From positions 1-26,412 of the IMG/VR virus record IMGVR_UViG_3300031825_000063: a DNA stretch of 26,412 bases. One strand, given 5' to 3'. The translations under genes were made by a program, and so were the position numbers. Origin of the DNA: a virus. Positions 1-16,709 of the stretch are shown here, one piece after another (the first letter of the stretch is position 1; each line of letters starts with the position of its first letter). The notes beneath the pieces were generated by a model that saw only the letters and a program-made list of their open reading frames with translations, was not told the DNA's origin and searched no databases.

Positions 1-251
1 GACGATGCGGTCGCGTATCCCTCGGTGCTGATCGGCACGCCGGGGATCGGTGACTGCGGACGCAGCGACCGCAGTGCCGTCCGGTCGAGCTTCGTCGACG
101 CTACCGACACCGGGGCATAAGTGGCATCTGCTGCCGCTTTCGACAGGTACTTCGGATCCCCCACCGCGTCGACCCGCGCGTCGATCGCCTCGCGCGCGAC
201 AGCCGGCAGCGCCTTCGTCTCCTCGTCGATGGTGACGATCTTTCTCGCCAT
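1..251 (-). CDS. N-terminus of a putative tail appendage or other virion protein (partial)
   Basis: This reading frame is open from an ATG at 251 to the window edge (83 codons visible), so its C-terminus lies outside. It begins MARKIVTIDEETKALP and has a KAAADATYAPVS stretch near residues 38-50. Such Lys/Ala-rich segments ending in ADATYA are common near the N-terminus of phage tail fibre, tail-tip and virion-associated hydrolase proteins. A GGAG lies 6 bases before the ATG, and only one base separates the ATG from the stop of the preceding tail-tube paralog, so the two are probably translationally coupled. I infer a tail-associated structural protein. The enzymatic or binding domain, if any, is not in the window. 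Confidence 0.6.
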   Translation of the reverse strand, partial: MARKIVTIDEETKALPAVAREAIDARVDAVGDPKYLSKAAADATYAPVSVASTKLDRTALRSLRPQSPIPGVPISTEGYATAS

Positions 252-252
252 G

Positions 253-1077
253 TCAGGCTCCAATCGTGTACAGGCCGGATCCGGCCGGGGATTCGGTCAT
301 GCCGGGCGGGATCGCGTACAGCCCCGATCCGGGCGGGTCTTCGGTCAGGCCGGTGAACCCGTACAGCCCGGATCCGGCCGGCGACTCGGTGAGGGTGTAG
401 GTCTCCGGGCCGATCGGCGGGAAGCCGAGGTCGACGAGGAGCCGCTTCCAGCCGGGGCCGCCGAAGAAGTGCCGCACTGAGAACCCGGCGGCGGTGTCGA
501 TCATGGCGTTGACGGTGGCCGGCCACGCGAGGGCGCCCTCGCCGTCGGTGATGGTCTGCTCCCCTGTCTCGGCGACCTCCCCGGCGGCGATCAGCCGGCC
601 GATGTAGATCGCGTCGGCGCCGTACCCGGAGCGGGCGAGGGTGAGGAACCGGCCGCGGCGGACCTGCGCGACCGCGGGCTGGTCGAACGAGACCTCGCCG
701 GTGCCCGGCCGCGGCTGGACTCCGGACAGGTCGACCTGCAGGCCCGTCTCGATGTTGTGCCGGTTGGTCTCGAGGCCCTTGAACGACAGGGAGAACACGT
801 CGGCGGTGATGTCCGAGCGCACCGGATTGGAGTAGCCGATCGCACCGATGTCGGACTTCTCCATCTCCCGGGCCCAGACGATCGCGTCCTCCTTGTCGAT
901 CAGCCCGTAGTCGAACCACCCCGGCGGAAGCTGCGCGAGGGTGGCGACGTCGCCTGTGGTGATCGACGACATCATCGGTGCGGTCGGGCCCGCACCGAAC
1001 ACGTGCGCCTCCGACGGTTTGATGATCAGCTCACGCTGGTGGCGGGCCAACTCCAGCTCGGCGACTCTCGACGGCAT
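253..1077 (-). CDS. Second major tail (tube) protein paralog with repeat C-terminus
   Basis: This 274-residue protein is a clear paralog of the major tail protein encoded at 15771-16709. The alignment runs without large gaps from the N-terminus (MPSRVAELELARHQREL against MPSKVAQLEIARHQREL) to about residue 225. Shared blocks include EMEKSDIGAIGYSNPVRSDI, GEVSFDQPAVA, GEVAETGEQTITDGEG and FGGPGWK. The C-terminal Ig-like domain of the first copy is missing and is replaced by three short TE(S/D)PxGSGLY repeats. The start is the ATG at 1077, preceded by GGAAGGA at good spacing; an upstream extension in the same frame has no such site. It follows the lysis membrane-protein genes, far from the tail module. 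It may be a minor tube subunit, a tail-tip ring or a host-range variant of the tube; I cannot tell which. Confidence 0.85.
   Translation of the reverse strand: MPSRVAELELARHQRELIIKPSEAHVFGAGPTAPMMSSITTGDVATLAQLPPGWFDYGLIDKEDAIVWAREMEKSDIGAIGYSNPVRSDITADVFSLSFKGLETNRHNIETGLQVDLSGVQPRPGTGEVSFDQPAVAQVRRGRFLTLARSGYGADAIYIGRLIAAGEVAETGEQTITDGEGALAWPATVNAMIDTAAGFSVRHFFGGPGWKRLLVDLGFPPIGPETYTLTESPAGSGLYGFTGLTEDPPGSGLYAIPPGMTESPAGSGLYTIGA
256..393 (-). repeat. Three tandem 15-16 residue TE(S/D)PxGSGLY repeats in the tail-tube paralog
   Basis: The last 46 codons of the second tail protein form three units: LTESPAGSGLYGFTG, LTEDPPGSGLYAIPPG and MTESPAGSGLYTIGA. The DNA repeats too, with GATCCGGC-type cores spaced by about 45-48 bases. 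Such short Gly/Pro/Tyr units often form beta-hairpin decorations on virion proteins, but that role is inferred. Confidence 0.85.
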
Positions 1078-1093
1078 CGCGGCATCCTTCCGG

Positions 1094-1618
1094 TCAGTCG
1101 CACTTCGGTTCGGGATACGGGTTGTCGCGGCGCTGCTGCTCGAGCGCCCCACGCGCGGCGATCAGGTCGCCGCGTTCGCGGTCGTTGACCGCGACGGTCG
1201 TCTCGTACCGCTCAAGCAGATCCCGCACCCGGCCGTTGCCGCCGGGCTCGGCGGTGAGCAGCCCCCGGACCAGATCGGTCAGGGCGGCGTCGCGCTGCTC
1301 ACGCAGCGCATCGTCGCGCTTTTCGAGATCGCGGTCCTCGCTGTTGATCCGGGCGTTCTCCCGCAGCGCACGCTGGAAGTCGGCGTTGCACTCGGCCTGG
1401 TGTTGCTGCTGGATCTGCGCGGTGATCACCGAGAACGTCGTCAACAGGGACAGGGTGATCACGACGATGGTGAAGTTGCGCGACGATTTCGGCACGAACG
1501 GCACCAGCAGCGACACGCCCCGCAGCCGGTACTGGCGGTACTGGACGACGGTGCCAGCGGCGTAGCTGGCCGCGCCGACCAGCACGTAGCGGATGAGCGT
1601 CTCCCACAGTTCAGTCAC
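1094..1618 (-). CDS. Membrane protein with coiled coil, lysis cassette (spanin/LysZ-like candidate)
   Basis: The product has 174 residues from a GTG at 1618, which overlaps the preceding gene by 8 bases. A hydrophobic segment near residues 8-25 (YVLVGAASYAAGTVV) and a second at about 50-66 (FTIVVITLSLLTTFSVIT) are followed by a long, charged, heptad-like region at about residues 70-165, rich in Glu, Arg, Gln and Asp. This pattern, one or two membrane anchors plus an extended coiled coil, matches the third small membrane protein often found next to holins in actinophage lysis cassettes, where it may act like a spanin. No lipobox or known family signature is visible, so the exact lysis role is inferred from shape and position. 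Confidence 0.6.
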   Translation of the reverse strand: MTELWETLIRYVLVGAASYAAGTVVQYRQYRLRGVSLLVPFVPKSSRNFTIVVITLSLLTTFSVITAQIQQQHQAECNADFQRALRENARINSEDRDLEKRDDALREQRDAALTDLVRGLLTAEPGGNGRVRDLLERYETTVAVNDRERGDLIAARGALEQQRRDNPYPEPKCD

Positions 1619-1874
1619 GGGACTCGGCCTCCCTGTCGGCCTGCGGCCGTTGCGGTGGTGGGGGCGGCGGGTCGGCCTTGGCGGCCTGGTGGTTACGCGC
1701 GAGCAACCACATCACCACGGCCGTCATGATCTCGTTGAGCCCGGTCGGGGCGACCCACTCGAACCGGAAGAACTGCGAGACGATCTGCGCGGAAACCGAG
1801 GTCCCCCACAGGGCGACGACGATGCCGACGACCACGGACCGGGTCCGCGGCGATGGTCCGTTCGGTTGCGACAC
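1611..1874 (-). CDS. Small two-helix membrane protein, holin candidate
   Basis: An 87-residue protein if translation begins at the GTG at 1874 (N-terminus MSQPNGPSP); an in-frame GTG at 1904 would add 10 residues. I prefer 1874 because AGGGA lies 6 bases upstream, but 1904 is possible. There are two hydrophobic segments, about residues 14-32 (VVVGIVVALWGTSVSAQIV) and 43-59 (LNEIMTAVVMWLLA). The tail is charged and proline-rich with six prolines in a row (PPPPPP). Small size, two membrane helices, a hydrophilic C-terminus and a position beside endolysin genes are typical of phage holins. The gene just upstream encodes another two-helix protein, so the two may be a holin and its partner or antiholin. 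Confidence 0.6.
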   Translation of the reverse strand: MSQPNGPSPRTRSVVVGIVVALWGTSVSAQIVSQFFRFEWVAPTGLNEIMTAVVMWLLARNHQAAKADPPPPPPQRPQADREAESRD

Positions 1875-1919
1875 GCGCCGTCCCTGCCTTTCCTGCCGGC
1901 CCACAGGCCCCTGCGGTCC

Positions 1920-2408
1920 TCACCTGGCCCCCTCGGGCGGCGGCGGCGCGGCCGCGGCATAGCGGGGGGTGATCTTCAGCCGCGCGATGTAGGAGATCGC
2001 GGTCTGGACGATGGTCTTGAGCACCAGCACCCCCAACGTGGCCCACGCGGCGCCGTCGAGGACGTCGACGTCCCCCAGCGCTAGCGCGAGCACCGACAAC
2101 AGGGCGAAGCCGATGTCGATCGCCAGGCCCTGGACGAACGTGCGCCACGATCGGTTGCGGGCGTCGACGACGGTGAGCTGTTCACCGCGGGCGGTGACCG
2201 CGGTGACGTCCGGGACCGGGTCGGGCAGGCCGCGGCCGGTGAGGACGCCGGTGCCGACCTGGCGGGCGTAGTCGCCGAGCTCGCGCCGCACCGCGGCCTG
2301 CTGGCGCTCCCACTCCTGCCGGGCCGCGTCGGCGGCCTCGCGGCGCACCAGCTCCCAGAACGGAAGCTCCGCGCGGGTGGTCGATTCGACGTCGTGATCT
2401 GCTGACAT
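1920..2408 (-). CDS. Membrane protein with soluble N-terminal region, holin candidate
   Basis: The 162-residue product starts at the ATG at 2408, where AGGAGG sits 7 bases upstream; an in-frame upstream extension is unlikely because of this strong site. Residues 1-85 are hydrophilic and charged, with a probable amphipathic helix (FWELVRREAADAARQEWERQ). Two hydrophobic segments follow, near 95-113 (FVQGLAIDIGFALLSVLAL) and 120-140 (AAWATLGVLVLKTIVQTAISY), and the protein ends in a Pro/Ala tail. Adjacent to the wall-degrading enzymes, it is a good holin candidate, similar in layout to actinophage holins with a long N-terminal cytoplasmic part. It could instead be the partner of the smaller membrane protein downstream. 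Confidence 0.6.
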   Translation of the reverse strand: MSADHDVESTTRAELPFWELVRREAADAARQEWERQQAAVRRELGDYARQVGTGVLTGRGLPDPVPDVTAVTARGEQLTVVDARNRSWRTFVQGLAIDIGFALLSVLALALGDVDVLDGAAWATLGVLVLKTIVQTAISYIARLKITPRYAAAAPPPPEGAR

Positions 2409-2418
2409 TCGATGCCTC

Positions 2419-3528
2419 CTAGGGCTGGCCGACGAACTCGGCGAGGATCGCGTCCCACTCGGAGCCCGGCTGCGCATCGTTGGGTGCCGGGTCGGCCACG
2501 AGCGGCCCCAGCTTGTTCGGGGCGGTGAACCGGTACTGCATGGCCCGGTACGGCACGGAGCCGTTCACCCCGTCCCACTGGGAGACGATCATCACGAACT
2601 GGCTCTTGGTGCCGTCCACCTTCTCGAACTTGCTGTCGGGGTGGACGTAGCAGCCGTACAGGCTGGGCTGCACGTCGTACCCGAACGGCAGGCCGGCGCC
2701 GCGCACGGGCCGGGTGATCGGGGCGGTGTGCCAGTTGACGTTCTCGATGGGCCCGTAGCCGAGCCGGACGAACGAATCGTACGAGCTCGCCCGGAATCCG
2801 GAGAGCACGTGGTGCCCCTGGATCCACCGGTAGCCGATCTCGCCGAACTTCTCCCCCGCCGGCATCATGTCGCCCGGCTCGTGGTCGGCCGGGTTCGCCT
2901 TCCACACCCAGGCGCCCCCGATCCAGCAGCGGCCCTCCCACTTGGCGGGGTCGAGGATGTCGGCCTCGCGGACGCGCCAGAGCAGCATGTTCTTGTTGCG
3001 GGCGAGGCCGCCGGTGGAGAAGGCGTAGACCCAGCCGTCGCGGCCGCGGTCCCAGGTCATCATCACGCGCTGGCCGCGGAATGCGGTGGTGGACCACTTG
3101 GTGGTGGAGTTGGTGCCGTTGACCCAGGTTTCGCCGTTGTCGTCGGAGTACCAGATCTCGCACCACAGCTCACCGCCGAGGCCAGCTGTGACCATCACCC
3201 AGAGGTACACGCGGCCGCCGATGACGATCGCATCGCACGGCAGCACGGTGGTGAACTCATTGTTGTTATGAACGTAGGGCCACAGCTGGTCACCACCGCG
3301 GCACGCCGCGTCGATGACGATCGGCTGCGTCATGTCCCGGGTGGGTGAGGTGACGATCACCGGCGAGCGCCAGTCCGGTCCGCCGGCGGCCTGGGTGGTG
3401 CCGCCGAACGTGTCGCCGAAGATGTACCCGACCCGGCCGTTCGGCAGCACGATCGGGATCCCGAGATCGGTGCCGCCGATCGGCCGCGGGATGTTCTGGA
3501 CTGGATTCAGATCACGGATCTTCGCCAT
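2419..3528 (-). CDS. DUF4185 / GH183-type glycoside hydrolase, candidate endo-D-arabinanase
   Basis: A 369-residue protein starting at ATG 3528 (MAKIRDLNPV), two bases after the stop of the M23 gene and without a strong Shine-Dalgarno, so probably coupled. Residues 21-41 (DLGIPIVLPNG, then YIFGDTF) and later beta-rich blocks such as VYLWVMVTAGLG, DNGETWV and WVYAFSTGG are typical of DUF4185 five-bladed propeller proteins. Members of this family have been shown to be endo-D-arabinanases and form glycoside hydrolase family GH183. Asp21 and Asp39 are candidate active-site acids (inference). In mycolata, D-arabinan is part of arabinogalactan and lipoarabinomannan, so a role in opening the outer wall at lysis fits its place in the cassette. 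The last residues, EWDAILAEFVG, resemble the end of the amidase encoded upstream. Confidence 0.8.
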   Translation of the reverse strand: MAKIRDLNPVQNIPRPIGGTDLGIPIVLPNGRVGYIFGDTFGGTTQAAGGPDWRSPVIVTSPTRDMTQPIVIDAACRGGDQLWPYVHNNNEFTTVLPCDAIVIGGRVYLWVMVTAGLGGELWCEIWYSDDNGETWVNGTNSTTKWSTTAFRGQRVMMTWDRGRDGWVYAFSTGGLARNKNMLLWRVREADILDPAKWEGRCWIGGAWVWKANPADHEPGDMMPAGEKFGEIGYRWIQGHHVLSGFRASSYDSFVRLGYGPIENVNWHTAPITRPVRGAGLPFGYDVQPSLYGCYVHPDSKFEKVDGTKSQFVMIVSQWDGVNGSVPYRAMQYRFTAPNKLGPLVADPAPNDAQPGSEWDAILAEFVGQP

Positions 3529-3530
3529 GG

Positions 3531-4337
3531 TCAGCTGCCGAGGATCTGATTGACGTCGAGCTGCAGGTGCGTCGCGATGGCGCGCAGCAGCAGGTTGTTC
3601 TCCCGCGCGAGCGCCGCGGTGCGCAGCACGTGCCCGCGCATGGTCGTCGGGCCGGTGCCGCCGTCCTTGGTCTTGTCGGCGACCTCGCCGTAGGTCATCT
3701 CGGCGGCGACCGAGCGCAGCCAGTACCGCATCTTCGGGTCGGAGAACTGGTTCGGCATGTTCTCGTACAGCGTCAGGGTGTCGGCCGAGGTGGCGCCGTT
3801 GAGTTCGTTCTGGACGTCCTGTGCAGTAGCCACGGTGGCTCCCTTCGTTGTCGACGGCACCGATGCCGTCGGGGTCTTGGTGGTGGCCGGCGCCGGGGCG
3901 GTGCCGGGGTAGTTCGCGTTCTTCAGAAACGGCATCGGGTCCATGCGTCCTGGGCCTGCCGGTTGGCGCGTCCAGCGGTGCACCTCGACGTGCACGTGCG
4001 GATCGACGCCGCCGTTGGTCGATCGGTCTCCGTTCACGCGGCCGATGCGCTGGCCTGCGTCGACCTTCTGGCCGCGGCGTACTTCGGGGACGATGTGCCC
4101 GTACACCCACAGGTTCGAGCCCTGAGCGTCGTCGGAATCGATGTCGAGATAGTGACCGAAACCCTCTGGATCCCATCCGACGGCGACGACGGTGCCTGCC
4201 TGGACGGCGTAGACCGGCTTGTTGGCAGATCCACCCGGCCAGCCGAAATCCACACCGTAATGCGTTGCGCCCCAACGCGGTCCGTATCCACTTGTGACTA
4301 TGTGCCCGCGGGCCATGGGGAAGTACCTACGCGGCAT
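3531..4337 (-). CDS. M23-family peptidoglycan endopeptidase (endolysin component)
   Basis: This 268-residue protein carries a zinc M23 (LytM/lysostaphin-type) domain at about residues 10-125. The HxxxD motif is H26-YGV-D30, YGH ends at H81, and the HxH motif is H114-V-H116, followed by EVH. Such enzymes cut peptide cross-bridges of peptidoglycan. A Thr/Pro/Ala linker at about 131-165 leads to a helical C-terminal region of about 100 residues that I do not recognise; it might bind the wall. The start at 4337 overlaps the upstream HNH gene by 11 bases and has GGGAG about 8 bases before it; a second in-frame ATG at 4316 is possible. With the amidase gene it forms a split endolysin rather than one multidomain LysA. 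Confidence 0.88.
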   Translation of the reverse strand: MPRRYFPMARGHIVTSGYGPRWGATHYGVDFGWPGGSANKPVYAVQAGTVVAVGWDPEGFGHYLDIDSDDAQGSNLWVYGHIVPEVRRGQKVDAGQRIGRVNGDRSTNGGVDPHVHVEVHRWTRQPAGPGRMDPMPFLKNANYPGTAPAPATTKTPTASVPSTTKGATVATAQDVQNELNGATSADTLTLYENMPNQFSDPKMRYWLRSVAAEMTYGEVADKTKDGGTGPTTMRGHVLRTAALARENNLLLRAIATHLQLDVNQILGS

Positions 4338-4857
4338 TGTTCATCTCCCGCCTTTTCGCTGCGTGCCATTCCCTGTCCGTCTTGCGTAGGCAGGTGGCGC
4401 AGCGACGTTTTCCATCGCTCAGCGTGCGGACGTTGTCACCCGACATCGGATGCCCCCGCTTGCAGACGATGCGTATTCCGCCGCACCGCCTTCCGTTCCG
4501 AATCCGGTCGGCGATGTTCTCGGATCGCGTTCCCCACCGGAGGTTCGAGGCCCGGTTGTTGCCCGGGTCGTCGTCCCAGTGAAGGCCTTCCGTCCCCTCG
4601 GGAGCCGGACCGACGAAGGCCTCGAGCACGAGACGGTGCACCAGCACTGTGCGCTGGTCGCCGTCCCGACTCAGCGTCACCTGTCGGTGTCCGCGAGGCA
4701 TCATCTTCTGCCGCAGAACTCGGCCGCGGTAAAGCACTTCGCGGCCGCAGTTGTGCCAGATCATGCGGTCGACGGATCGAACCCGCCCCTGATCGGATAC
4801 CTCGTAGTAGCCGACGTATCCGGATACCGGCTTCCACGTCTCCTCCGGCCCGGCCAT
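4327..4857 (-). CDS. NUMOD4/HNH homing endonuclease inserted in the lysis cassette
   Basis: A 176-residue protein. Residues 7-31 (TWKPVSGYVGYYEVSDQGRV and on to RSVDR) match the NUMOD4 DNA-binding motif. Residues 74-110 (VHRLVLEAFVG, GLHWDDDPGNNRASNLRWGT) match an HNH_3 nuclease core with His93 and Asn101/Asn105. The C-terminus has a probable zinc site formed by C132-x3-H136 and C153-x2-C156. Free-standing homing endonucleases of this type spread by cutting phage genomes that lack them. The ATG overlaps the amidase stop by one base (TGATG), behind GGAAGGGGGAAG. By eye its base composition is less GC-rich than that of the tail genes, consistent with transfer. An upstream in-frame extension into the amidase gene is not credible. 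Confidence 0.88.
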   Translation of the reverse strand: MAGPEETWKPVSGYVGYYEVSDQGRVRSVDRMIWHNCGREVLYRGRVLRQKMMPRGHRQVTLSRDGDQRTVLVHRLVLEAFVGPAPEGTEGLHWDDDPGNNRASNLRWGTRSENIADRIRNGRRCGGIRIVCKRGHPMSGDNVRTLSDGKRRCATCLRKTDREWHAAKRREMNNAA

Positions 4858-5483
4858 CACTTCCCCCTTCCGACGAACTCGGCCAGGACCGTGTCCCAGT
4901 CCTCGCCGGTGACCGCGGCGCCGACGGCGCCGCCCTGGGACAGGTGCACGGCGCGGTCGAGGAAGATCGGCCACGGGAATTCGGGTCCGGGGTCGGTGTG
5001 GCCGCCGCCCCACATGCCGAGGTCACCGTGCCCGCACACGCCTCTCGAGCGGGGCGGGGTGCCGTCGGTGACGCGGCGGATCGGCAGCTCGTTGATCTCG
5101 GCGCGCCACGCGACCCACAGGGCGCCGCGCCAGAGCATCAGGTCCTGGTTGCGGCCGTCGGCATCTTTGTCCGGATCGAGCCACTGCGCTGTGGTCCACT
5201 CGGCGAAGCTGCCGCCGAAGCACAGGTGCTCGGCCACGGTGTTCGCGTTCGCCGCGGCCCAGGGGGCGTCGACGTACGGCACCATCTGGATGAGCTCCCG
5301 CTCGTCTGCCGCGTCGTGGTAGGACACCTGCGACGAGGCCTGTGCGCAGTAGCCGGCGAGGGAGCGGGCGGTGCCGTTGCCCTGCTGGGTGTGGATGACG
5401 AGGTAGCGGCAGTCCGTTGCTGCGCCGGGGTATCGGTTCGGTGACCAGATCGGGGCCGCGTTGTGCGGGTCTGCGATCGACAC
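4857..5483 (-). CDS. N-acetylmuramoyl-L-alanine amidase (amidase_2/PGRP-like endolysin component)
   Basis: A 208-residue protein from a GTG at 5483 with GGAGG 8 bases upstream. It shows the amidase_2 pattern: YLVIHTQQG (zinc ligand His31), SYHDAADE (His56), an intermediate AEHLCFGG block (84-91), and GHGD then GGHTDPGPEFPW, with His162 as probable second zinc ligand and Asp164 nearby. These enzymes cleave the bond between muramic acid and the stem peptide. The whole chain is little more than the catalytic domain; after it comes only a short tail ending DWDTVLAEFVGRGK, and the WDxxLAEFVG part recurs at the end of the DUF4185 protein. It is the first gene of the lysis cassette, directly after the minor tail genes. 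Confidence 0.85.
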   Translation of the reverse strand: MSIADPHNAAPIWSPNRYPGAATDCRYLVIHTQQGNGTARSLAGYCAQASSQVSYHDAADERELIQMVPYVDAPWAAANANTVAEHLCFGGSFAEWTTAQWLDPDKDADGRNQDLMLWRGALWVAWRAEINELPIRRVTDGTPPRSRGVCGHGDLGMWGGGHTDPGPEFPWPIFLDRAVHLSQGGAVGAAVTGEDWDTVLAEFVGRGK

Positions 5484-7636: not shown

Positions 7637-8809
7637 TTACCTCCTGGCGTTCTGGTTGCGGATCTCGGCAGCCAGGCGGGCGATGGCGTCGACGACCGCG
7701 GTGGGCCGGCCCGGGGCGGCGACGCCGCACTTCGGGGTGTAGGTCACCGGCGAACCGGCCTCGTCGCGCATCTCCACCTCGGTGATCTGTGCGCGGAACA
7801 GCTGCCCGGCGATGCGGGCGTAGGCAAAGTCCCCGTTGGCCCAGTCCTGCCCCATCCACCACGGGTTGCCGTCGACGACGGTGAAGTTCACCGACAGTCC
7901 GCCGGCGGCCGCGGCGAGCTCGGCGCGTCCAGCCTCGAGCGGATCGACGTTCTCGTCGTTGGCTTCGACGAAGATCTCCGGCAGCCCGAAGTTCGACGAA
8001 TCCGCGCGGGCGTCGGTGTCGATCACCTCGTAGAACGGGCGGGCGGTTCCTTCGCCTTTGCCGCCGATGTACGCCCGGTACGCCTTGCGTTCGGTGGAGG
8101 ACACCGAGAACTGCTCGAGGTGCTCCTGCTGCCACAGCAGCCGGCCGGTGTCACGGCCGGCGACGACGTCGATCATCACCGTGCCCGGCTCCGGGGCGAC
8201 GTGCACCGCCGCGGGCAGCGGGTCACCGGTGCGGTAGGTGCGGGCGGTGATCGTGTACCCGTACTTACGCAGCACATCGTCGGTAAGCGACTTGACGGTG
8301 ACCATCCGCGCGGACAGCTTGATGATCGGGGACTGGTCCTCCACCGCCGACGGCACCACCATCACCGGGACCTGCAGGCGCCCGGCGGCGTCGGCGATGT
8401 AGCCCTTGATCACCGACTCGAGCGGTCCCTCGCGGACATCGGACTCGCGGTCCTGCAGGCTGGGCCCGACGTCGGCGTTGGCGACCGCGAGCATCGAGTC
8501 GAGCCAGATCCGGTCGTTGACGATGGTGAGCTCGAGGACCGGGCCGTCCCCGTCATCGACGTACTCACCGGAGATCCGTCCCGTCCACGGCTCCGGCGCC
8601 GGGGTGTAGACGGAGATGAACAGCGGCTCCTCATGCACCTTCAGGGCCGCAGTGAGCAGCTCCGGGTCCGGGGTGCCGGGGATGGCGATGGTGCCCGAGC
8701 CGATGTCCTCCCACTTCCAGCTCACCGTCGCCGACTCGTGCTCGGTGATGGACGTGAGCAGCTCGCGGTGCCGGTTGTAGACCAGGTACCGCGCGTCCCG
8801 TCCGGCCAT
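7637..8809 (-). CDS. Siphovirus ReqiPepy6 Gp37-like minor tail protein
   Basis: A 390-residue protein starting at ATG 8809, which overlaps the preceding gene's stop by one base (TGATG). The N-terminus (YLVYNRHRELLTSITEHESATVSWKWEDIGSG) followed by an LFISVYTPAPEPWTGRISG block is typical of the Sipho_Gp37 family named after Rhodococcus phage ReqiPepy6. This family sits after the distal tail protein in many actinophages and is thought to be a tail-tip hub component similar to lambda gpL/gp27-like proteins. Other features are RMVTVKSLTDDVLRKYGYTI in the middle and a C-terminal Ala/Arg-rich helix. The gene order, tape measure then Dit-like then Gp37-like, supports the call. Confidence 0.82.
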   Translation of the reverse strand: MAGRDARYLVYNRHRELLTSITEHESATVSWKWEDIGSGTIAIPGTPDPELLTAALKVHEEPLFISVYTPAPEPWTGRISGEYVDDGDGPVLELTIVNDRIWLDSMLAVANADVGPSLQDRESDVREGPLESVIKGYIADAAGRLQVPVMVVPSAVEDQSPIIKLSARMVTVKSLTDDVLRKYGYTITARTYRTGDPLPAAVHVAPEPGTVMIDVVAGRDTGRLLWQQEHLEQFSVSSTERKAYRAYIGGKGEGTARPFYEVIDTDARADSSNFGLPEIFVEANDENVDPLEAGRAELAAAAGGLSVNFTVVDGNPWWMGQDWANGDFAYARIAGQLFRAQITEVEMRDEAGSPVTYTPKCGVAAPGRPTAVVDAIARLAAEIRNQNARR

Positions 8810-9726
8810 CAGTAGGCCGCCAGGTAGAACGTCGGGAGTTCGAGCCGGATGTTCGCGCCCGGTCCGCCGCCGATGATCTGCGCGGTGGCCACGACGTCGT
8901 CCCCCGGCTTGACCGGCGCGAAGTCATACAGGCCGCCGATGCGGTCCCACGCGCGGTTGCCGCCGCCGTCGACCACCTCGGAGTGCGAGGGGTCGGTGAC
9001 GATCACCAGGCGCTCACCGGCGGCGAGGCCGGAGACGTAGGTGATGTGCTCACCGACGCCGACGACGGCCTGCCCGGGCCCGTCGATCGTCCACGTCGGC
9101 CAGACCTCCACCTGCCCGGGGTTGGTGAGCACCGCGTTGCCGATCGCGTTGCCGCCGGTGATGTAGAAGTCCGGGGCCGCGTTGGTGGGTCCGTAGTAGT
9201 TGTCCGGCGTCGCCGAGCCGGTGAACGGGAAGTCGAACACGACGTCCTTGCCGCGCCAGAACGGGGATTCGGCGGCGAGGGTGATCTCGTACTCGGCCGT
9301 GCCGCGCACGTCGGGCATCGTGTCGACGTCCCCGTCGTCGAGCTCGACGAGGCGGCCGGAGAAGCTGCGGGACTCCCCCAGCGCCTCCACCTCCAGGGTG
9401 CCCGGGTACAGCGGGGAGAACGAGTCCCGGAACGACCGGTCCAGGTACAGGAACTCGTCGCCGCGGCGGAAGTTCCCGGCCGGCCGGGACACCCAGGTGT
9501 CGCCGACGACCACCGTCATCGTGCAGTCCCCCGCGTCCCAGTCGATTCCCTCGAACCGCACCCCGTGCCGGCGGGCGGTCTTGTGGGTGAGCTGGGTGAA
9601 CTTCGGCAGCAGGATCGACTTCAGTCCCTTCGGCAGGATCGCGCCCTCGGTGCCGGACATCAGGTTCCACTCGGTGCCCAGGTGCGAGGCCCACCGCACC
9701 TGGACCCGGCTGTGCAGGGCGCTCAT
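8809..9726 (-). CDS. Distal tail (Dit-like) minor tail protein
   Basis: A 305-residue protein starting at ATG 9726 (MSALHSRVQVRWASHLG), with a 4-base ATGA overlap with the tape measure stop. It has the WNLMSGTEGAILPKGLKS opening, then a GIDWDAGDCTMTVVV block, repeated short beta segments, AEYEITLAAESPFWRGK and a C-terminal galectin-like beta region with NPGQVEVWPTWTIDGPG. This is the usual layout of Sipho_tail/Dit proteins, which form the ring at the tail end that connects tube and tip. A much longer open frame upstream runs antisense-like through the tape measure gene and is not coding. Confidence 0.8.
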   Translation of the reverse strand: MSALHSRVQVRWASHLGTEWNLMSGTEGAILPKGLKSILLPKFTQLTHKTARRHGVRFEGIDWDAGDCTMTVVVGDTWVSRPAGNFRRGDEFLYLDRSFRDSFSPLYPGTLEVEALGESRSFSGRLVELDDGDVDTMPDVRGTAEYEITLAAESPFWRGKDVVFDFPFTGSATPDNYYGPTNAAPDFYITGGNAIGNAVLTNPGQVEVWPTWTIDGPGQAVVGVGEHITYVSGLAAGERLVIVTDPSHSEVVDGGGNRAWDRIGGLYDFAPVKPGDDVVATAQIIGGGPGANIRLELPTFYLAAY

Positions 9727-15770: not shown

Positions 15771-16709
15771 CTACGAGATGGTGACCGTGCCGGACGGGGT
15801 CAGCGAGGCACCGGACCCGGTGAGGGTGCCGACCTTGGCGACGTCGATCTTCACCGTGTAGGGGCCGCCCGCGGTGCCGGTGACGGTGACGTCCCCGGCG
15901 TCGAGGGTTGAGAGCGCCTCGAGCGCGGCCTGCACCGCGGCGGCCGTCGCATTGAACGCGATGGGATCGGTGGTCTGCCCCCCGAACGACAGCGTGAAGG
16001 TTCCGCCGGTGGGGTTGCCGCCGATGGTGACGACGTAGGTGGCCTTCGGATCGAACCCGGCCTCCTCGAGCAGGTTCTTCCAACCCGGCCCACCGAAGTG
16101 GTGCCGCACCGACACCCCGTAGAGCGTGTCGACCATGGCGTTGACCGTGAACGGCCAGCCGAGGTAGCCCTCACCGTCGGTGATGGTCTGCTCCCCGGTC
16201 TCGGCGACCTCACCGGCGAGGAACTGCCGGCCGAAGTGGATCGTGTCCACCCCCGAGCCGACATCGGCGAGCAGCATGTACCGCTGGCGCCGTATCAACG
16301 CGACCGCCGGCTGATCGAACGACACCTCCCCGGTCACCGGATCCGGGGTCACCCCGGACAGGTCGACACCGAGGTTCGTCTCGATGTTGAACCGGTTCGT
16401 CTCCAGGCCCTTGAACGCCATGCCGAAGATGTCGCTGGTGATGTCCGAACGCACCGGGTTCGAGTAGCCGATCGCATTGATGTCGGCCTTCTCCATCTCC
16501 CGGGACAGGTTGACGGCGTCTTCCTTGTCGAGCAACCCGAAGTCGTAGTACCCGACCGGGAGTTCGGCGAGCTGACTGCTCGGCCCTTCGGTGATGTTCA
16601 GCACCACCGGGGTGGTCATCGGCGCGCCGAACACGTGCGCGGCGCGGGGCTTGAGGATCAGCTCGCGCTGATGCCGCGCGATCTCGAGCTGGGCGACCTT
16701 GCTGGGCAT
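15771..16709 (-). CDS. Major tail (tube) protein with C-terminal Ig-like domain
   Basis: A 312-residue protein starting at ATG 16709, with AAGGAGG 6 bases upstream, one of the best ribosome sites in the window, as expected for an abundant virion protein. The body (to about residue 225) contains LLDKEDAVNLSREMEKADIN and GEVSFDQPAVALIRR. The end holds a bacterial Ig-like or fibronectin-type domain seen on many actinophage virion proteins (GGTFTLSFGGQTTDPIAFNA, AAVQAALEALSTLDAGDVTV, then GGPYTVKI). It forms the tail tube by stacking in rings. A terminator-like hairpin lies in the 85-base gap before it, so its dose may be set separately from that of the head genes. A paralog lies at 253-1077. Confidence 0.9.
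   Translation of the reverse strand: MPSKVAQLEIARHQRELILKPRAAHVFGAPMTTPVVLNITEGPSSQLAELPVGYYDFGLLDKEDAVNLSREMEKADINAIGYSNPVRSDITSDIFGMAFKGLETNRFNIETNLGVDLSGVTPDPVTGEVSFDQPAVALIRRQRYMLLADVGSGVDTIHFGRQFLAGEVAETGEQTITDGEGYLGWPFTVNAMVDTLYGVSVRHHFGGPGWKNLLEEAGFDPKATYVVTIGGNPTGGTFTLSFGGQTTDPIAFNATAAAVQAALEALSTLDAGDVTVTGTAGGPYTVKIDVAKVGTLTGSGASLTPSGTVTIS

Follow-up and report, generated by a model that had tools for sequence, protein, structure and literature searches.

The window (the whole stretch of DNA analysed here, 26,412 nt of IMG/VR record IMGVR_UViG_3300031825_000063) is a provirus fragment with its late genes on the minus strand, from a Rhodococcus prophage. The genes and features that matter for what follows are:

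1..251, minus strand: start of a fibre-like gene (MARKIVTIDEETKALP..., from the translation), which leaves the window
253..1077, minus strand: MTP2, second gene for a major tail (tube) protein, start codon ATG at 1077 and stop codon at 255-253, 274 aa
421..1077, minus strand: tube domain of MTP2, residues 1-219 (from conserved columns and dN/dS)
256..420, minus strand: C-terminal SGLY tail of MTP2, residues 220-274 (from alignment with the -1-frame tail of phage REQ2)
361..393, minus strand: tail repeat 1, LTESPAGSGLY (translation)
316..348, minus strand: tail repeat 2, LTEDPPGSGLY (translation)
268..300, minus strand: tail repeat 3, MTESPAGSGLY (translation)
1085..1091, minus strand: Shine-Dalgarno-like GGAAGGA of MTP2 (sequence)
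1094..1618, minus strand: membrane-protein gene, upstream neighbour of MTP2 (matches membrane-protein families)
1614-1904, minus strand: small gene of the lysis block
1923-2408, minus strand: small gene of the lysis block
2422-3528, minus strand: endolysin-like module
3534-4337, minus strand: endolysin gene
4860-5483, minus strand: endolysin gene
7640-8809: hub gene, in its usual place
8812-9726: Dit-like gene, in its usual place
15771..16709, minus strand: MTP1, main tail tube protein gene, 312 aa (PHROG 476 match)
15774..16037, minus strand: decoration domain at the C-terminus of MTP1, which MTP2 lacks (the BLASTP match ends here)

A second, intact major tail protein gene, placed after the lysis cassette and equipped with a strong ribosome site, had been proposed in the sequence-only reading, and this is what is found: MTP2 lies on the minus strand with the lysis genes directly upstream, behind a GGAAGGA (1091-1085) to which comparable purine-rich sites are present in relatives. 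The gap between the membrane-protein gene and MTP2 is 16 nt, and a sigma-70 scan gave no promoter-like site belonging to MTP2 itself. On the other side, the fibre-like gene starts at 251 (i.e. 1 nt past the MTP2 stop), and its counterparts at this position in relatives encode fibres, depolymerases or minor tail proteins; this gene and its link to the MTP2 tail had gone unmentioned in the earlier reading. No sheath gene was seen in the tail region of the window. Between the two endolysin genes, the gene at 4330-4857 (minus strand) has, by eye, the look of a NUMOD4/HNH homing endonuclease.

MTP2 and MTP1 are paralogues by sequence, being identical at 159 of 249 positions (64%) with one gap (BLASTP, E = 2e-113), and both match PHROG 476 'major tail protein' (MTP2 at 1.5e-49 over residues 9-236, MTP1 at 4.3e-57), while the PDB match for MTP2 is the tube protein gp13 of mycobacteriophage Douge (E 5.4e-14). 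The tube domain is common to both, and of its 93 columns that are invariant among 17 other family members, 82 are kept in MTP2, the replacements being conservative in most cases. Beyond residue ~219 the two proteins diverge: MTP1 continues with a decoration domain, which is the sole part of MTP1 matched by several PHROG tail families, and MTP2 with a 55-residue tail (ETYTLTESPAGSGLYGFTGLTEDPPGSGLYAIPPGMTESPAGSGLYTIGA) that has no recognised domain and holds three PxGSGLY repeats, the short repeats that had been described as gained. An AlphaFold2 model of MTP2 (23-row alignment) reached a mean pLDDT of 47. In Douge gp13 the C-terminal domain points away from the hexameric ring, towards the outside (PDB 8ZDL, 8ZEA; PMC13033339), and by analogy the tail of MTP2 should face the exterior of the tube.

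MTP2 is also present in six other IMG/VR proviruses; the sequence-only reading had suggested that relatives be searched for both copies and for signs of drift or disruption. All six hold one MTP1 each, and in all six MTP2 is flanked by the same membrane-protein gene and a fibre gene; the reading frame is intact in the seven genomes (the window included). Among 314 phage records with a homologue, none has two copies of the tube gene. The dN/dS of the type A tube domains (the type found in the window) is 0.09-0.23 among close relatives, compared to 0.04-0.09 for MTP1, and between the two copies of a second type (type B) it is 0.04. Judged by these ratios MTP2 is under purifying selection, and a decaying relic, already thought unlikely in the sequence-only reading, is rejected. 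In one provirus (IMGVR_UViG_2634166395_000001) it is MTP1 that is frame-broken, by one C too many in a poly-C stretch around codon 21 (L035:8059-8070), and MTP2 is intact despite this; the break is either a sequencing error or the mark of a defective prophage. R. aetherivorans DSM 44752 (NZ_JAALEG010000012.1; L019, L020, L021) carries two related MTP2-bearing prophages ~44 kb apart on one contig, and among 18 genomes of its genus only R. aetherivorans itself gave a match at the level of MTP2.

On the tree, type A MTP2 (window, 1152, 1707b, 1707c, 6395) stands apart from MTP1, and 32 residues are fixed in it that are absent from the rest of the family, whereas type B (7247, 8087) is sister to MTP1, with 84-88% amino acid identity. 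A recent copying of MTP1 as the origin of type A is rejected by this tree, the root of which depends on a single long branch (NBR1). That MTP2 'lost' an Ig-like domain is therefore not shown: the C-terminal domain of MTP1 is indeed absent, but on the tree the window type of MTP2 is not descended from the present MTP1. Types A and B, separate as they are, carry the same tail; either, then, the tail became joined to tube domains at least twice, or gene conversion from MTP1 replaced the tube part of type B.

A search with the MTP2 tail led to Rhodococcus phage REQ2, in which the only major tail protein gene ends, after an Ig-like domain, in GTA AAC CCT TAG. The -1 frame is open across this stop and reads KPLVGPAVDETPAGGGLFMMSPPPVESTSSGLYDIPAGLVESPPGSGLYATGA-stop, and all three repeats of the MTP2 tail align with it; the peptide KPLVGPAVDETPAGGGLF belongs to this putative -1-frame extension of the REQ2 tube protein. 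The extension is unannotated (L038:8918-9079, i.e. NC_016652 8712-8873, between gp12 and gp13). A second tail search led to two phages (L058 and L059) in which the tube gene ends in GAA ACC CCT TAG and the SGLY tail again lies in the -1 frame, there behind a tube protein of another family (PHROG 3884). Other tails related to that of MTP2 were found in IMG/VR; none was found in plasmids. A match in NadineRae that continues past its stop was discarded as a low-complexity chance hit, there being no repeat tail at that place.

The stretch before the stop reads AAC-CCT-TAG in REQ2 and ACC-CCT-TAG in L058, with a C-CCU-UAG core, so that both have, as far as sequence can tell, a slippery stretch followed by a constrained -1 frame past the stop. 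Differences between the REQ2 and L058 tails number 6, 7 and 20 by position in the -1 frame, the third being highest, and pN/pS is 0.27 in the -1 frame compared to 2.05 and 1.53 in the other frames, which indicates that the -1 frame is under selection as protein. Strong hairpins follow; strong hairpins or hairpin-like sequence are also seen behind some extension-free tube genes. It would seem that REQ2-like phages make a tagged tube subunit by ribosomal frameshifting. No shift site was found at the 3' end of MTP1 in the window or its relatives, and a dedicated gene for MTP2 fits an MTP1 of this kind.

What all these tails have in common is the gene that follows. In 10 out of 10 genomes with the tail on a tube protein, a fibre gene starts 1-3 nt past the tail stop, with a GGAG within the last tail codons ahead of the fibre start (likewise 10/10). 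The downstream proteins have a common N-terminus of 30-60 residues (M-x-K/R-K/R-L/I-V-S-F-D ... DATY) and differing bodies. The fibre that follows MTP2 in one provirus (L016) matches the fibre behind the putatively frameshifted, unrelated tube gene of L058 at 58% identity over 702 aa. The L007 fibre body shares ~72% identity with Gordonia phage minor tail proteins, only from residue 29 on, and Gordonia phage Annalisa has a related fibre body with another N-terminus, 15 kb from its tube gene. Among phage records, REQ2 is the only match to the fibre N-terminus.

A second type of N-terminus follows a second type of extension: in L045, L047 and L048 a C-CCY-stop with a PG-repeat -1 extension is followed by a fibre-like gene of that other type, and L039 has a seeming remnant of a fibre-like gene after such an extension. 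The candidate PG-repeat extensions (e.g. PLLPGNDLFPGNDVFPG) lie at L047:8660-8740, L048:8665-8745, L045:8660-8740 and L039:8915-9000; the fibres behind them have a TPIxAxxLNRIE N-terminus, which in L045 matches the head fibre family PHROG 5711. At tube genes without a C-CCY-stop extension (including all MTP1 and that of phage REQ3, whose tube protein is 74% identical to that of L058) no fibre gene was found directly downstream. A hand tally of the link between extension and fibre (6 with, 16 without) gives a Fisher p of 1e-5, to be taken as a guide only because the sequences are related and hence not independent. By eye, the C-terminal domain of MTP1 (15774-16037) is seen again, in frame, on the REQ3 tube protein (L069:2950-3211), which is unrelated, so that decoration domains also seem to move between tube families.

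Similar SGLY repeats occur outside tube genes as well and are therefore not exclusive to the arrangement of tube tail and fibre: Dit-like proteins contain them internally (L057, L085), minor tail proteins have them N-terminally (Jojan60, L018:4947-6584, and L086), and in L081 they form the C-terminus of a large protein that is not a tube protein. Apparently, PxGSGLY is a widespread and undescribed repeat of phage tail proteins. The non-tube sites in L057, L084, L085, L086 and L081 lie near 4000-5100.

Since the tagged subunit of the relatives seems to be frameshifted and always comes just before a tail-fibre gene, MTP2 is probably a minority tube subunit that holds a receptor-binding fibre. 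The reading we prefer, to which we give about even chances, is that MTP2 is a minor tube subunit with a gene of its own, the counterpart of a frameshift-extended subunit, and that its tail anchors the fibre encoded next door. The tube domain would polymerise with MTP1, with a minority of MTP2 subunits scattered along the tube or placed in particular rings, and these subunits would expose the PxGSGLY tail on the outside in place of the decoration domain of MTP1. The tail would provide all or part of the site at which the product of the next gene, fibre or depolymerase, attaches, with the short conserved fibre N-terminus as the matching plug, and the near-abutting stop and start codons would couple synthesis of the fibre to that of its anchor. 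More tentatively, and with somewhat less than even confidence, it is proposed that the SGLY tail and the matching fibre N-terminus make up a mobile plug-and-socket cassette with which siphophages hang receptor-binding fibres or depolymerases on the tube itself. Such a cassette would pass from one tube protein to another, unrelated one, would be wired by a -1 frameshift at the tube stop codon or else, in Rhodococcus prophages, by a dedicated second tube gene, and would have its anchor-to-fibre ratio set by the near-abutting codons. Adjacency of the fibre gene, taken by itself, can reflect joint inheritance.

Two tube isoforms in one tail are already known. SPP1 makes gp17.1 and gp17.1* in a 3:1 ratio by frameshifting (PMC8718954); as with MTP1 and MTP2 the two differ at the C-terminus, but there one gene suffices and the extension is an FN3 domain, whereas here there are two genes, a short repeat tail and a fibre gene directly next to it. 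In lactococcal 936 phages, TpeX is a tube extension behind the decoration domain (PMC6669499), and the REQ2 extension likewise follows a decoration domain in another frame; TpeX differs in being a large carbohydrate-binding extension, with neither a second tube gene nor a short tail coupled to a fibre gene. The tsh genes of Listeria phages PSA, A118 and A500 undergo +1 shifts at CCC-UGA, on a proline codon before the stop (PMC5009743), and in REQ2 and L058 the candidate shift likewise falls on the proline codon that immediately precedes the stop of the tube gene, the difference being that it leads to the -1 frame and that the window has a dedicated gene. Douge gp13, the closest solved relative of the MTP2 tube domain, has an outward C-terminal domain, as the tail of MTP2 is predicted to be, and comes from a single gene with an Ig-like domain, no SGLY tail being described in the accessible part of its report. 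MTP2 and MTP1 thus share with these systems a C-terminally extended form beside a different main form. Production of both forms from one gene by frameshifting, which looks to be the case in REQ2 and L058, is not found in the window, and because its gene is separate MTP2 would work like the gp17.1*/Tsh-L/TpeX family without being a member of it. The open-access literature yielded no report of a siphophage with a second, dedicated gene for the tube, nor of a tail-fibre cassette common to unrelated tube genes.

The main rival reading also makes MTP2 a minor tube subunit, with the SGLY tail itself as adhesin or decoration, its repeats contacting the host surface, and with the fibre attached elsewhere as a mere neighbour. 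The known C-terminal tube extensions are adhesin-like (the FN3 domain of gp17.1*, the carbohydrate-binding module of TpeX), in Douge the Ig-like domain of the tube serves to label the surface of mycobacteria (PMC13033339), and SGLY repeats occur in baseplate proteins without this type of fibre. Against this, the tail of MTP2 is 55 residues long with no recognised domain, and the same fibre N-terminus is always within 1-3 nt of it, even on unrelated tube proteins, and we regard an adhesive tail as possible, if rather doubtful.

A role of MTP2 as a special ring at one tube end, or as an entire alternative tube that is used under some conditions, is unlikely. Its separate gene, its own ribosome site and its diverged tube domain (the 32 residues specific to type A) would suit such a role, and contractile systems do have tube-fold initiator proteins. 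Those of the T4 gp54/Afp5 type, however, are encoded among baseplate and hub genes and form the first ring of a contractile tail, whereas MTP2 comes behind the lysis genes, with ~6.5 kb between it and the hub gene, in a genome with dedicated Dit-like and hub genes in their usual place. Moreover, REQ2 and L058 carry the same tail on their only tube gene, so that the tailed protein is not ring-specific there, and type B MTP2 is 84-88% identical to MTP1. Of the options considered in the sequence-only reading, nothing specific supports alternate tails or a special terminal ring, and mixed tubes fit MTP2 best, given the 82 of 93 residues kept and the presence of the same tail in the -1 frame of other phages' only tube gene, an arrangement by which mixed tubes are known to be made.

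That MTP2 is a passenger of the fibre cassette, a roleless relic of another phage's tube gene, would agree with a type A not derived from the present MTP1 and with the variable genes that adjoin it near the prophage end, but is improbable in view of the intact gene in seven genomes, its dN/dS (0.09-0.23) and its invariant residues (82/93), and because tail and position are kept in the separate type B too. Very improbable is an accessory, dominant-negative subunit that poisons the tail assembly of competing phages, for although the similarity of the tube domains would permit poisoning and prophage ends are a frequent site of accessory genes, MTP2 comes right behind the lysis genes in the late operon, without a promoter-like site of its own in the sigma-70 scan, and its tail also occurs on main tube genes in other phages.

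As far as the searched open literature shows, two tube isoforms in a siphophage tail come from one gene and frameshifting. With a second tube gene the minor isoform becomes directly testable, since MTP2 can be removed or given a tag while the main tube gene stays as it is. Should the MTP2 tail hold fibres, as in the reading preferred here, phages would have a way of gaining or exchanging receptor-binding fibres on the shaft of the tail as well as at the baseplate, and extensions missed in genome annotation, such as that of REQ2, would be accounted for.
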